Source of the DNA: Echinicola soli
GTDB taxonomy: Bacteria; Bacteroidota; Bacteroidia; Cytophagales; Cyclobacteriaceae
Reading direction: 5' to 3'
Length of the DNA: 64,000 nucleotides
Assembly: GCF_006575665.1 (NCBI RefSeq)
Contig: NZ_CP041253.1
Coordinates: 3,943,001 to 4,007,000 of the forward strand
The stretch's first letter is position 1. Each line of letters begins with the position of its first letter. Below the pieces are notes generated by a model. That model worked only from the letters and a program-made list of their open reading frames with translations, was not told the origin of the DNA and searched no databases. This document shows, piece by piece, positions 11,891 through 51,731 of the stretch. The position numbers were made by a program, and so were the translations under genes.

Positions 11891-12178
11891 CTGACTGGGT
11901 TTTACCAAGTTTTAATGATTAACGGCATTAGTCAGAACACCTCTTTCACTATTTTAGCGAACAGAAGTGTCAGCTGTGATGCTCCTAACGGAGTATCAGC
12001 TTGGTATTAAAAGTGAATGCAGTATCCTAACAGCAGTGCTATAGGTACTGACCATGGGAAAGTAATTGTATGTATCAGAATAGACTGCATCAGGAGCAAA
12101 GGAACCGGATTCCATCTCTTCAGGTGTTTCTTCGGATCCCGATAGCCCGCTACCGCCCAACTTACCCACAGTAGATCA
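11891..12178 (+). repeat. Interspersed structured repeat B, copy 1 (5'-truncated)
   Basis: About 288 bp that align by eye, with many substitutions, to the later parts of two other copies at 38247-38638 and 40214-40616. Shared landmarks in order: TTTTACCA, GGCATtaGtCAG, CAGAAGTGTCAGC, GATGCTCC...TAT.AGCTTGGT, CAGTATCCTAA, GGTACTGACCA.GGG, GACTGCATCAGGA, CCCGCTACCGC. It lacks the 5' third found in the other copies. Hairpin arms ATGCTCC/GGAGTAT and CAGTGCT/GGTACTG are formed. It ends 23 bases before the S9 peptidase start, so any promoter or leader for that gene lies in the repeat. Confidence 0.8.
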
Positions 12179-12201
12179 TTTAAAACCAAAAACCATATCA
12201 C

Positions 12202-22138: not shown

Positions 22139-22398
22139 GATGCTCAGTTCGTTTAGATAAAGCCTTTTTTTTAAAACGATTTGTCCCCGATATCCATCGG
22201 GGCAGGCTATTCCGAGGTCACGAGGAATATCTTTCCGATAACGCATCAGGTAAAGGCCCTTCATTGCATCAGCATAACAGGACGCCTGTCATTCCGAGGA
22301 ACAGCCTGTCCGGATACATCGGAAGCAATCTTTCTTACCATTACGCAGGTTTTAGAGATCACGACTTCGCCTGTCTGTCTTGATGGAGATGAATGACA
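22139..22398 (+). repeat. Interspersed repeat A, copy 1
   Basis: The first part (22139-22215) aligns with 28606-28683: GATG.TC.GTTCGTT.AGATAAAG, then ACGATTTGTCCCCGATATC, C.GGGGCAGGCTATTCCGA, including a CCCCGAT/ATCGGGG hairpin. The remainder (22287-22398) is a large imperfect inverted repeat with TGTCATTC/GAATGACA ends, typical of the intergenic palindromic elements of Bacteroidota. Frames inside have no coding character. Confidence 0.7.
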
Positions 22399-28605: not shown

Positions 28606-28683
28606 GATGTTCTGTTCGTTAAGATAAAGAAATCTTTTTCAGGACGATTTGTCCCCGATATCCACCGGGGCAGGCTATTCCGA
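28606..28683 (+). repeat. Interspersed repeat A, copy 2
   Basis: Aligns with 22139-22215 (repeat A copy 1): GATG.TC.GTTCGTT.AGATAAAG, ACGATTTGTCCCCGATATC, C.GGGGCAGGCTATTCCGA. It is then followed by a different tail (28684-28775) rich in ATCCCGATACATCGGGA-type palindromes. No gene lies in 28445-28832. Confidence 0.7.
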
Positions 28684-35917: not shown

Positions 35918-35989
35918 AAGAACTTAATTTTTGTGAATAAATAAAAAAACTTCAGGAATGAAGATAATCGCTCGGAAGGACGCTTCACT

Positions 35990-36068
35990 TTTCCCTTCGC
36001 CCGCATTACCGGGATCAGGTTCAGAGGGTATGTCTCAGTCCCGATGGATCATCGGAACACCCCTAAAG
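35990..36068 (-). ncRNA. TPP riboswitch (THI element)
   Basis: On the minus strand the THI box is complete: GGGGTG at the 5' arm, CTGAGA, ACCCTCTGAACCTGATC, then the CCCGGTAATGCGGGCGAAGGG closing element (in pieces: CGGGTAAT-like GGTAATGC, GGGCGAAGGGA). It lies 73-151 bases before the thiS start and so controls the whole operon when thiamine pyrophosphate is bound. In the intervening 73 bases no strong stem is obvious by eye, so whether control is by termination or translation is open. Confidence 0.95.
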
Positions 36069-36214
36069 TCTTGTACGTACTTGCAAAGGTAGAATGATAG
36101 CGGAATTTTAAAAGCTATTGGTGAATTTTATTTGGATTGAACAGTCATTCCAACTTATAATCTACCTGGAGGCAGGAAATAGAGGATAGCGGCACTATTT
36201 TCCTTATTAATTTT

Positions 36215-36872
36215 TACTGGCGTTCGACCAAATTTCAAATATGATCAAAAACTGTCTTTAAATAGAAATTTGAGGATTTTTATTCCAATCCCTAAAATGA
36301 CCTTCAACACAGGGCAAACGCATTTACCAAGCATGAGCAAAATTAATGGATTTATGAATAATAGGCCTAATTGCCGATCCTCAAGGGTTGGACAGCTGAA
36401 CATTGGTTGTGCATATTAGCCCTTGCTGCGGTTATAGGAATATATCAACTTACTGAAAAGGATCAGGCAAATTGTTTTTGGATCACTCCCCTGAAAGGGG
36501 TGTTTAATCCAGCCCAATGAAACGCATTGGGCCAATAGGTGATGATGGGACTACCTGCGGCCTGTAAGGCCAGCTAAAAATCTTCCCGTGCATATTGTTT
36601 GACTTGATGGAAGAACTGAGCTGGGCTTTCAGCCTTAATGGCTACAAGCGATTTTCTGATAATAGGACTCATTAACAAGGGATTAGATGGTATTTAACCA
36701 TTCCTCGTCCAAGGATCGATCCTTGGACGAGGAAAACACGGCTAGATTTAGCAACCCCAAAGGGAATGATTTTTTTAAAATGCGTTCGCCTTGCCCCATC
36801 CCCTAAAGGGGATTTAGGGGTGAAAACAGTTGCTTTTTTTCCATTTAACGATCGTTTTCCAGGACGCCAGTA
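36215..36872 (+). mobile_element. MITE-like element, copy 1 (with inserted or cargo sequence)
   Basis: The ends are perfect inverted hexamers TACTGG...CCAGTA, with near-inverted TACTGGCGTTC/GGACGCCAGTA. Both sides carry the 9-bp duplication ATTAATTTT (36206-36214 and 36873-36881). The left 90 bp (to ~36304) and right 97 bp (from ~36776) align with copies 2 and 3; the middle ~470 bp is extra and has no transposase. The CCCCTAAA/TTTAGGGG hairpin of the family is near 36800-36822. Confidence 0.8.
36701..36734. repeat. 34-bp perfect palindrome within MITE copy 1
   Basis: Left half TTCCTCGTCCAAGGATC (36701-36717) is followed without spacer by its exact reverse complement (36718-36734). Near it, a GCCCAATG/CATTGGGC stem (36512-36519/36525-36532) also lies in the extra middle part. 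A string CTCCCCTGAAAGGGG...CCCAATGAAA at 36486-36522 recurs at 50522-50558 (repeat C). Confidence 0.85.
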
Positions 36873-38013: not shown

Positions 38014-38246
38014 ATAATTTTTTTTTAAAGTGACTTTGATTGATAAACCTATTAATATAAAGGGGGAATTTACTAAAACCATTAATTGGAACAATACAAA
38101 AAGAGAATTTTCGGCCCAAAATGAAAAAACGTAATTAAGGATAACGGAAATACCGACATAGGTACAACAGATCCATCTGCCAAGCTAGAAGTTATTGGAC
38201 ACATTAAGGTAGCTGAAATTGCAGAAATCAATAGGGAATCTAATGG

Positions 38247-38638
38247 TTCTATATGGAATACTGTGGATAAATTATCCACGGGACTGTCCCACTTGTGCGG
38301 ATAGATCAGGGGAATAGTTTTGTTCCTATGGCACAAAGCCCCTGGAGGCAACCTGATTTTACCAGGCTTAAATGCCTAGAGGCATCGGCCAGGACTCCCT
38401 TCTCACTATTTTAGCCGACAGAAGTGTCAGCAGGGATGCTCCGTTAGGTGTATTAGCTTGGTAACAGAAATTGGATACAGCATCCTAACAGTGCCGTAGG
38501 TACTGACCATGGGCAAGGAAAACATATATCATTATCGACTGCATCAGGAGCATGGGCACCCAAATTCATCCGTCCACGCGATGCTTCGATCTCCATAGCC
38601 CGCTAGCGCTCCGTTTACCTATAGTAAATCATATAGAA
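38247..38638 (+). repeat. Interspersed structured repeat B, copy 2 (full)
   Basis: A 392-bp copy with inverted ends TTCTATATG (38247-38255) and CATATAGAA (38630-38638). Near the 5' end is GTGGATAA-A-TTATCCAC (38263-38279), a perfect dyad. Hairpins GACA-GAAG-TGTC, ATGCTCC/GGTGTAT and CAGTGCC/GGTACTG follow. It aligns almost end to end with 40214-40616, and its 3' two thirds align with 11891-12178. No gene is in 38014-38670. Confidence 0.85.
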
Positions 38639-38670
38639 TCTAATTTAGATTCTATTGCCTGGCATTATTT

Positions 38671-39936
38671 TTATTTCTGCTCGTACGGGTGGGAGGCCAT
38701 TTTCTCCTCCAATAAAACAGGCTCTAAAACTTTCACCTGCCCATCAATATCTTTGGGAATCGGAAGCCCCAACAACCGACAGATTAGCGGATAAACATGA
38801 ATGTTTTCAAAAGCTTTTATTTCATGACCGGACTTGACCCGGGGGCCATTGGCGTAGAAAATGGCATGCATGTCTTTTAGCGAAGGATGGAATCCATGCT
38901 CGCCAAAAGTATCGGTATCAAACATGGCTGCCCTGTTTTGATATTTTATGAATCCTGAAGTAGCCACTAAATAATACCCTGGGTCGGGAATAATCAGTAA
39001 ATCCCCTACTCTTTCCGAATAATTGATATGCTTGCCGTAATAATTTTTGGATAGTGGATCGACCACCGAAAAATGATCTTCCAATTTTCGTAATTCTCTC
39101 CTAATTTCCCCCATATCCTTTGTATCTTTCAAGTGAAGGTGTGCCAGTGCCCCATCATTATAGTAATCAAGGGGAAATGGAGCCAGCAGCTTTTCCAGGT
39201 CTATCAACCGATCCTGTGTAATATTGGTCATCCCATGATCCGATACTATAATGATGTTAACAGGAAGACCTGACTTTTTTACTCCATCAAATAATATCCC
39301 CAGTTCTTCATCTAACTTGAATAGGGCCTCTTTAAGTTTTAGATCATTATTAGGACCATATTTATGCCCAGTATCATCCATGTCCGAAAAGTATAAAGTA
39401 ATCATCCTGGGCCGCTCTTCATCCGGAAGCCGTAGCCACTCCAGCACTTGGTCAATTCGTGTAGTGTTGGGTATGGTACCATTATAATCATAATAATAAC
39501 TGGGACGAATTCCCTGAATGGCTGCTTCAGAGCCTACAAAGAAGTAGCTTGCAGATTTCACTCCATGCTTCTCGGCTTGAACCCAAATGGGAGTTCCTCC
39601 ATACCAACTTCCGTCCTGTACCACAGAACGGTCACTAATACGATACGTTTTACTTTTCTGTGAACTAAAAAAAGTATTATCCACCAATCCATGATTACCC
39701 GGTTTCATACCTGTCGCAATAGTATAATGGTTTGGAAAGGTTTTGGAGGGAAATGAAGGAATCATAGAAGTCGCTGCAGTGCCCGAGGAAATAAATGCTT
39801 CGATATGCGGAGGATGAAAACGCTCGGTATAATCGTGGCGATAGCCATCCAATGAAATTAGCATTACATATTGATCCTGGGCAAATCCCTGAAAAATGGT
39901 TGTGATCAAAAAGATGATGAATAAAAGCAATCTCAT
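38671..39936 (-). CDS. ENPP-type alkaline phosphatase superfamily phosphodiesterase
   Basis: The start is the ATG at 39936 (MRLLLFIIFLITTIFQGFAQ, a signal peptide), giving 421 residues; the longer frame adds 13 residues. Nucleotide pyrophosphatase/phosphodiesterase signatures: LISLDGYRHDY (first metal Asp), SFPSKTFPNHYTIATG (nucleophile Thr near residue 65), MDDTGHKYGP, IVSDHGM and GEHGFHP (metal-binding Asp/His residues). The enzyme is exported and probably hydrolyses phosphodiesters outside the cytoplasm. It is flanked by two direct copies of repeat B and one MITE-like element. Confidence 0.92.
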   Translation of the reverse strand: MRLLLFIIFLITTIFQGFAQDQYVMLISLDGYRHDYTERFHPPHIEAFISSGTAATSMIPSFPSKTFPNHYTIATGMKPGNHGLVDNTFFSSQKSKTYRISDRSVVQDGSWYGGTPIWVQAEKHGVKSASYFFVGSEAAIQGIRPSYYYDYNGTIPNTTRIDQVLEWLRLPDEERPRMITLYFSDMDDTGHKYGPNNDLKLKEALFKLDEELGILFDGVKKSGLPVNIIIVSDHGMTNITQDRLIDLEKLLAPFPLDYYNDGALAHLHLKDTKDMGEIRRELRKLEDHFSVVDPLSKNYYGKHINYSERVGDLLIIPDPGYYLVATSGFIKYQNRAAMFDTDTFGEHGFHPSLKDMHAIFYANGPRVKSGHEIKAFENIHVYPLICRLLGLPIPKDIDGQVKVLEPVLLEEKMASHPYEQK

Positions 39937-40010
39937 TTGGCTCAATTTATAAGTGACACACCAAAAATAAATCAATCAACACGATATTAGATCAATTACA
40001 TGTTAAATTA

Positions 40011-40200
40011 TACTGTCGTCCGACTAAATTTCAAATATGATCTAAAACTGTCTTTAAATAAAAATTTGAGGTTTTTTATTCCAATCCCTAAAATGCCCCC
40101 CATCCCCTAAAGGGGAGCTTTAGAAAGTCCCCTTTAGGGGATTTAGGGGTGGATTTCGACGAATTTCCTTCGAAAGCAAAATCTTTACTGGGACGCCAAT
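40011..40200 (+). mobile_element. MITE-like element, copy 2
   Basis: A 190-bp copy beginning TACTGTCGTCCGAC and ending TGGGACGCCAAT. It is flanked by a perfect 9-bp duplication GTTAAATTA (40002-40010 and 40201-40209). Inside are AAATTTCAAATATGATC, a run AAATTTGAGG and two copies of the CCCCTAAAGGGG palindrome. No coding capacity. It lies immediately left of repeat B copy 3. Confidence 0.9.
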
Positions 40201-40213
40201 GTTAAATTATGGC

Positions 40214-40616
40214 TCTATATGGAATACTGTGGGTAAATTATTCACGGGATTGTCCAACTTGTGCGGAAAGAGCAGGGAAATGGTTTTGTTCCTACGCCCC
40301 CCTGGAGGCATCCTGATCTTACCAAACTTAGATGCCCAGCGGTATTGGCCAGGACTCCCGCCTCACGGTTTTAGCCGACAGAAATGTCAGCAGTTATGCT
40401 CCGCTAGGTGCATTAGCTTGGTAACAGAAAGTGAATACAGTATCCTAATAGTGCCGCAGGCCTGCCTCGCCCTGGGCGGGTACTGACCACGGGAAAGAAA
40501 AGTATGTATGATTATCGACTGCATCAGGAACTTGCCAGACAAATCCATCTGTCAACCAGCTTCTTCGATCCCCATTGCCCGCTACCGCTCAACTTACCCA
40601 AAGAAATCATATAGAA
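40214..40616 (+). repeat. Interspersed structured repeat B, copy 3 (full)
   Basis: A 403-bp copy with ends TCTATATG and CATATAGAA. Hairpins: GTGGGTAA-A-TTATTCAC (wobble-paired), GACA-GAAA-TGTC, ATGCTCC/GGTGCAT, and TAGTGCC/GGTACTG whose loop carries a ~20-base insertion containing GGCCTGCCTCGCCCTGGGCG. It is in the same orientation as copy 2, 1.6 kb away, with the phosphodiesterase gene between. Confidence 0.85.
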
Positions 40617-40625
40617 CAAAAAAAA

Positions 40626-50360: not shown

Positions 50361-50898
50361 CATAATATAACTATTGTTTAATCCAAAGGCTGGTATCATC
50401 GAAGTTGTGAACTGGATGATGCCAGCCTTCTTTATTGAATACCTTCCTGAAAATAAATTTTAGCCTCAGTTCGACTCTATAATCAGGCTTGAAGGGTTGG
50501 TTTAGATGTTTTTTTAGAACGCTCCCCTGAAAGGGGGACTTCATCCAACCCAATGAAAGATCAAGCCATATTTCTAGAGGCGGATTCAGGTTTCCATTCA
50601 TGTGGGATGTCGCCACGAAGTTTTTTGGAATAGGAGCCAAGTGCACGGCCCCCCTATCAATCTGCTTCGGGCCTTTGTGGCAGAAAAAGTCAAGTCACCA
50701 AGACACGAAGTTTTTGATTTGTATAAATCAACACCCCCTGTTGTTTCGACAGCTGTGCTGCGGAACCACGAAGGATCTACTTCGACAGCTAGGATTTTTT
50801 AAATCGAAAAGAGGTTTTTATCTAAGTCCATTCCCCGATCAGCTTTTATTTGACCGTTAATTTTAGTATGTTATAAATTGTATAAACCATTATATTGT
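50361..50898. other. 538-bp gene-free stretch with repeat C
   Basis: No convincing gene. It includes a 37-bp string (50522-50558, CTCCCCTGAAAGGGG...CCCAATGAAA) also seen at 36486-36522 (repeat C), with a CCCCTGAAAGGGG palindrome. The segment 50730-50800 contains two TTCGACAGCT copies. ORFs here show no coding character. Confidence 0.5.
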
Positions 50899-51490: not shown

Positions 51491-51564
51491 ACCATATTTC
51501 TTGAATTGAATAACACCATTAGCTAAAACCAATTTCCCTGCCATTACAATTAAAAAAATCAACA

Positions 51565-51731
51565 TACTGGCGTCCGACTAAATTTCAAATATGATCAAAA
51601 ACTGTCTCTAAATAGAAATTGGAGGGTTTTTATTCCAATTCCTAAAATGACCCCATCCCCTAAAGGGGATTTAGGGGTGAAAAAAGTTGATTGTTTTTTC
51701 AATTTGACGATTGTTTTCTTGAACGCCGGTA
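51565..51731 (+). mobile_element. MITE-like element, copy 3
   Basis: A 167-bp copy, TACTGGCGTCCGAC...CTTGAACGCCGGTA. The flanks AAATCAACA (51556-51564) and AAATCAATT (51732-51740) match at 7 of 9 positions, as expected from an older 9-bp target duplication. The right flank contains the ATPase stop codon (51735-51737), so insertion happened exactly at the gene's end. CCCCTAAA/TTTAGGGG hairpin inside. No coding capacity. Confidence 0.8.

Follow-up and report, generated by a model that had tools for sequence, protein, structure and literature searches.

A repeat that occurs three times in the window, i.e., the whole 64,000-nucleotide stretch of the Echinicola soli genome that was analyzed, is in our reading an ISL3-family MITE that has captured, as its core, a unit of a REP-like repeat flanking subclass 1.2-type TnpA genes, and we give this reading a probability of roughly 0.87. 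The ISL3 transposase of a 1,287-bp element in the same genome would recognize the terminal repeats of the 397-bp MITE and would have moved it into A/T-rich sites under duplication of 8 bp. The REP-like repeat would consist of a hairpin with the tip CC-(N)NNA-GG, a GTAG-like word ca. 20 nt after the start of this tip, and a second hairpin with the tip CC-RNA-GG ca. 50 nt downstream. Its units are most likely single-stranded DNA substrates of an IS200-like TnpA with the subclass 1.2 signature.

A mobile repeat with ISL3-type ends

The three copies that a sequence-only reading of the window had pointed out are real and lie where it had placed them (Table 1). Copy 2 finds matches in 47 blastn pieces of the window's own genome (G000; 5,550,304 bases in one contig, ca. 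5.55 Mb), which merge into at least 40 places, a lower bound because 40 of the 77 first-look candidates were scored; one additional partial copy lies at locus L136. From 25 copies of 360–430 bp among the 39 loci examined we built a family consensus of 397 bp, in which the longest stretch between stops is 55 codons, so that the earlier statement that no coding frame is shared holds. Searches with copy 2 in plasmids and phages and with the core pattern in GTDB contigs and viral contigs gave no match, though these collections may omit the window's genome and its nearest kin.

Table 1. MITE copies in the window and features of copy 2 (window positions)
Feature	Position	Strand	Remarks
MITE copy 1	11900..12187	+	lacks consensus positions 1-113; matches only 114-397
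MITE copy 2, complete	38245..38640	+	97.7% to the 397-bp consensus over its length
MITE copy 3, complete, older	40211..40618	+	ca. 80% to the consensus; an insertion splits the second hairpin
Left terminal inverted repeat, copy 2	38245..38271	+	one mismatch to the TIR pattern
Right terminal inverted repeat, copy 2	38614..38640	-	two mismatches to the TIR pattern
Hairpin 1 of the sequence-only reading, copy 2	38263..38279	+	beside the left end; outside the REP-like unit
Further hairpin with the same kind of tip, opposite strand	38370..38386	-	CC-TCTA-GG in copy 2; CC-GCTA-GG in the consensus
Hairpin 4 (GACA-GAAG-TGTC), copy 2	38417..38428	+	directly ahead of the REP-like unit
First hairpin of the captured REP-like unit (earlier hairpin 2)	38436..38453	+	tip CC-GTTA-GG
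GTAA word, copy 2	38461..38464	+	20 nt after the start of the first tip
Second hairpin of the unit (earlier hairpin 3)	38489..38505	+	tip CC-GTA-GG; 53 nt after the first tip

The ends of the repeat follow a TIR pattern that, with up to three mismatches, is found at 79 sites in G000 and at none when it is reversed as a control. ISL3-family elements duplicate 8 bp of their target, and the 8-bp flanks are identical in nine of 26 MITE copies (the 25 consensus copies plus a shorter one that has both ends), with three more showing a single mismatch, so that 12 match to within one base. No exact duplications of 5, 6, 7, 9, 10, or 11 bp were seen among these 26 copies, and 5,000 flank shuffles yielded at most three exact 8-bp duplications and at most five within one mismatch. 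In the remaining 14 copies two or more of the eight flanking bases differ, and neither copy 2 nor copy 3 of the window has an exact target duplication. The duplicated bases of the 12 copies are 90% A/T, compared to 68% in the 60-nt flanks of all 26.

A single gene of G000 scores above the Pfam ISL3 cut-off. It lies within a 1,287-bp element at 5250363-5251649 whose ends match and which is itself flanked by a perfect 8-bp duplication (TAAAAAAT), and its 405-aa product reaches 305.3 bits with the NCBIfam ISL3 model (cut-off 180). A second ISL3 transposase gene of this genome is present as broken pieces at 3662888-3663438. Of 30 bases compared at each end, the MITE shares 27 with the complete element on the left and 24 on the right, and the first 26 bases of its consensus are the left end of the element; the two interiors show no likeness at E 1, so that only the ends are common to both. 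With termini, target duplication, and a helper gene all in evidence, the repeat is a non-coding ISL3-family MITE, which by itself is ordinary; decayed parts of a transposase gene, the alternative that the sequence-only reading had named, are not what we found. That exactly this helper moved the MITE in trans is what we infer.

ISL3-type ends of this kind are shared more widely than the MITE interior. Among seven longer ISL3 relatives in named GTDB records (L211-L217) that we compared for the end repeat, L211 and L212 carry it at both ends with one to two mismatches and L214 at both ends with five, L213, L216, and L217 have it at one end, and L215 at neither. Six of 18 further TIR-bearing stretches of G000 (L131, L132, L141, L142, L147, and L148) have the TIR at both ends and no interior of this family, and L241 in the sister genome G005 and L240 in G008 are MITEs that combine these ISL3-type ends with a different interior. 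TIR matches occur in eight of the 11 genomes of the genus, including 72 sites in G005. Among these 11, a helper-like ISL3 transposase was found in G000 and in G004 (76% alike, with one stop) and a weak match in G003; G005 has no ISL3 transposase match at present despite its 72 TIR sites. One other candidate was rejected, namely that we were looking at the remains of an IS200 element: the Y1 gene beside one MITE copy (L090, G000 4336273-4336632) belongs to an IS200 insertion into that copy, and the same IS200 is also present at 4949855 in G000 without the MITE.

The window holds several other features. These comprise a TPP riboswitch at 35975-36074 on the minus strand (72.1 bits versus a gathering score of 54.3), another interspersed repeat family with three copies (36200-36302, 39996-40098, and 51550-51652), each close to a palindrome CCCCTAAAGGGG..TTTAGGGG, a 49-nt direct repeat with 92% likeness (22167-22215 and 28635-28683), and genes for SusC- and SusD-type proteins. 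As SusD is a marker of the Bacteroidota, a host from this phylum is most likely.

Hairpins inside the MITE

The sequence-only reading had described four hairpins that it considered to be kept across the three copies, and all four can be read as described if corrections are made to hairpins 1, 3, and 4. In hairpin 1, the differences between copies 2 and 3 had been taken as changes under which pairing persists; measured against the 25-copy consensus they are separate one-sided changes, and neither is compensatory. Copy 2 has an A, and thereby an A-T pair, at a position where G-T is the state in 21 of 25 copies; this A is seen in one copy of the 25, and the G-T pair of copy 3 in five. The two arms of hairpin 3 are split by an insertion in copy 3, and the tight hairpin is therefore lost there. 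The sequence GACA-GAAR-TGTC of hairpin 4, said to be constant in copies 2 and 3, can indeed be read in both but is not constant in the family, since 16 of the 25 copies have G-C as the outer pair.

These hairpins had been interpreted as a sign of either selection on RNA structure or a structured mobile element. The second half of this proposal stands, as the repeat is a MITE with core hairpins of a kind that covaries elsewhere (see below); selection on RNA structure finds no support for this repeat in the changes among copies, covariation, folding, or Rfam. In the four named hairpins, 20 of the one-sided changes across the 25 copies preserve pairing and 32 disrupt it, and of the two-sided changes one preserves it and five disrupt it, with a divergence from the consensus of 4.9% at stem sites and 6.3% in the rest of the interior. 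Stems chosen automatically gave the same picture for one-sided (73 kept, 123 broken) and two-sided changes (four kept, nine broken). In an alignment of 44 core copies (four of 48 sequences were dropped as cut or ill-aligned), none of the 30 best covarying column pairs falls on a pair of the two core hairpins. RNA folding z-scores for the interior of copy 2 are -1.05 and -0.98, so its folding energy is unremarkable, and no Rfam family matches the MITE of the window or its module.

We therefore consider it highly improbable that the repeat is a structured non-coding or cis-regulatory RNA family that is kept by RNA-structure selection and spread as a cassette: breaking changes outnumber keeping ones among the copies, the core alignment shows no covariation, the folding energy is ordinary, and Rfam is silent on element and module alike. 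The hairpins do exist, of course, and two further observations would fit an RNA. One is that hairpin 2 has four double pair-keeping changes in the core copies outside the MITE, a count reached by one of 1,000 shuffles, though two of the four come from alike copies and the split into MITE and non-MITE copies was made by hand. The other is a strand asymmetry in the automatically chosen stems, where 95 transitions keep pairing on the minus strand versus 46 that keep it on the plus strand (unpaired sites, 91 versus 117); this may be due to the base composition of the stems and to changes common to related copies. As part of our reading as a captured unit, we propose that the hairpins within the MITE are passengers that drift.

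REP-like units and their TnpA genes

The REP-like unit in the MITE has the tips CC-GTTA-GG and CC-GTA-GG 53 nt apart with GTAA between them. In the consensus, the tips lie 53 nt apart at positions 198 and 251, with GTAA at offset 20, and the MITE therefore carries one whole unit. This core, module M1 (consensus positions 185-266), has matches without MITE ends in G010 and G005, and where it occurs in G000 outside the MITE (L150 and L155) it adjoins a module M3 that the MITE lacks. The G010 element is found in 65 blastn pieces of that genome, with modules dispersed without a gene. We infer that M1 was captured by the MITE and not the reverse. In principle, the MITE could instead have originated as a REP-like element that multiplied by means of its hairpins, the TIR likeness being secondary, given that it contains a whole two-hairpin unit and that the unit also occurs without TIRs. 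Yet the 8-bp duplications adjoin the TIRs and not the hairpins, and the same ends enclose other interiors in G000, G005, and G008, which makes this account barely credible.

Among M1 and its relatives, the stems of the hairpin ahead of the anchor AGCTTGG covary, with 31 distinct arm pairs and none of 1,000 shuffles as high, and the second hairpin has 32 distinct arm pairs with one of 1,000 shuffles as high. Repeats of this kind surround genes of Y1 transposases: the TnpA gene L253 (G010, 2847632-2847976) sits within arrayed M1- and M2-like repeats that point in both directions, the TnpA gene L256 (G005, 1225497-1225841) among CC-TAC-GG words, and L263 in G005, whose product scores above the cut-off of the REP-transposase model, among M3 repeats. 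Most of the 19 Y1 loci of the genus that we compared had no match to the modules at E 1e-3. G000 has no close L253-like TnpA at E 1e-15, and its units are therefore orphans. A genome-wide excess of CC-GTA-GG hairpins was not seen in samples of 464, 400, and 400 kb.

The modules also appear in other arrangements. A 30-nt fragment of M3, the module found among the flanks of the RAYT gene L263, is present in the window at 50740-50769 on the minus strand. The L058-type element of G010 (L101, L107, L110, L113, and L088) is a mosaic repeat of ca. 326–348 nt built of M1, M2, and M3, and thus of modules that are tied to two kinds of Y1 gene. Locus L149 (G000 852600-854700) is a tandem array with units of ca. 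293 bp, each comprising an M3-like hairpin and a GTTACCAAGCTGG..CC-TAAC-GG hairpin, and at L087 in G010 a group II intron match lies between two M1 copies.

The L253 and L256 proteins score above the cut-off of 55 bits of the IS200 model (74.3 and 64.7 bits) and stay below that of 80 bits of the model for REP-associated tyrosine transposases (29.9 and 25.6 bits). Both carry Y---Q--HH, the signature of TnpA-Y1 subclass 1.2, for which the table in PMC6006769 has "no" under REP. Searches for L253-like TnpA found matches in 82 of 148 genomes at the level of the family (1e-15) and in 87 of 198 at the level of the phylum (1e-20). From these we compiled 97 loci, which were picked by score and do not include every homologue and for which subclass 1.2 was assigned by motif and not by tree: set A (30, family search), set B (40 further, more distant ones), and set C (27 new ones, phylum search). 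Y---Q--HH is present in 68 and WQ in 71 of the 72 proteins of sets A and B including L253 and L256, and each is present in all 27 proteins of set C.

A first tip rule, CC-G(Y)TA-GG, was discarded as too narrow with 29 of 70 loci (A 16/30, B 13/40). It was widened because an enumeration of loops with CC/GG closing had put GAA, ATA, AGA, and AAA beside GTA. The wider rule asks for CC-NN(N)A-GG with at least three more pairs no more than 700 nt from the gene, and two such tips on one strand 44–62 nt apart count as a spaced pair; it was chosen on sets A and B, so that set C, fetched after the rule was fixed, serves as an independent test. Tips are found in 89 of the 97 loci (A 29/30, B 33/40, C 27/27) and a spaced pair in 48 (18, 12, and 18, respectively); 49 loci have no spaced pair, with set B being the poorest. 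Tip density near the genes is 3.34, 2.42, and 3.66 per kb in sets A, B, and C. Near 16 other Y1 genes it is 0.18 per kb, with tips in four loci and no spaced pair, and 400-kb samples of G000, G010, and G006 have 0.29, 0.23, and 0.19 tips per kb and four, zero, and zero pairs. Stretches of set C more than 900 nt from the gene contain no spaced pair. Around the TnpA genes of sets A and B, triloop hairpins closed by CC..GG (stem of at least 6, any loop) number 1.00 per kb and occur in 27 of 70 loci; their density is 0.195 per kb more than 900 nt away, 0.015–0.020 per kb in the genome samples, and 0.045 per kb around other Y1 genes.

For covariation near the TnpA genes we took every CC-RNA-GG word whatever its neighbors. 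The arms form 134 distinct arm pairs, and those of set C alone form 51; in both cases none of 2,000 shuffles is as high. CC-RNA-GG words in the G006 and G000 samples show no excess pairing (1,065 and 1,334 of 2,000 shuffles as high), nor do GG-RNA-CC words near the genes (240 of 2,000). The spacing of tips peaks at 47–55 nt, with many pairs supplied by the tandem-array locus L287. Of 122 distinct units, 91 have a [GA]TAG or GTAA that begins 19–25 nt after the start of the first tip, compared to nine of 122 in a window 10 nt further on and 14 of 122 for the reversed word.

These hairpins could be nothing more than ends of ordinary IS200/IS605 insertion sequences or deletion derivatives of them. 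The L253 and L256 scores with the two models would agree with this, as would the subterminal hairpins that IS200 elements use according to PMC6006769. However, many units in both orientations surround one gene, the modules are dispersed without the gene in G010, and subclass 1.2 is described in PMC6006769 as low-copy and generally devoid of IS200 end structures. We thus regard this explanation as unlikely.

The association of units with TnpA genes, the fixed tip and spacing, and the covarying stems are plain observations. That TnpA recognizes and cleaves the unit would follow by analogy with TnpA-REP and IS200/IS605 enzymes, which bind single-stranded DNA hairpins by features of loop and stem and cleave via a guide word (PMC8266576). 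Beyond the MITE itself, it appears rather likely that subclass 1.2 TnpA has its own REP-like system across the window's phylum, in which the enzyme would read tip and word on single-stranded DNA. Such a system would link IS200 insertion sequences with RAYT/REP, and its units would be picked up and spread by unrelated transposons, here an ISL3 MITE. It is probably unreported: we found no description in the one open-access library that was searched.

The cargo of a MITE has in this way pointed to a likely substrate of Y1 enzymes whose group is listed without one in the table of PMC6006769, and the substrate rule of tip, spacing, and word is simple and can be checked with oligonucleotides. If this holds, an unrelated transposase can disperse REP-like sequences, and well-formed hairpins in a repeat are not in themselves a sign of RNA.

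Comparison with known systems

Like other ISL3 MITEs, the repeat has ends resembling those of an ISL3 element of the same genome, an 8-bp duplication, and no coding frame. It differs in that its interior is foreign and holds the REP-like unit, i.e., it is not a deletion derivative of the element; MITEs that resemble their partner only at the ends are known as such (PMC3852290). The BrickBuilt MITE of Porphyromonas gingivalis is likewise a Bacteroidota MITE with repeat DNA inside inverted-repeat ends, but its cargo is a 23-nt minisatellite (PMC4596501).

With REP/BIME sequences and the REPtrons of RAYT (TnpA-REP) genes, the units share short hairpins in many copies, arrays in two orientations around a Y1 transposase gene, and stems that vary while pairing is kept (PMC3733652, PMC6006769, and PMC8266576). 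However, what stays constant here is the tip of the hairpin, and the GTAG-like word is placed between two hairpins instead of at the hairpin foot. Canonical REPs have a GTAG foot (PMC3733652), and because the unit lacks it we use the term REP-like and do not count the unit among the REPs. The partner also differs, being IS200-like with Y---Q--HH and below the REP-transposase cut-off. This partner matches TnpA-Y1 subclass 1.2 as described in PMC6006769 in its length of ca. 150 aa, WQ, and Y---Q--HH; it departs from that source's "no" under REP in the hairpin units that we find at many such loci.
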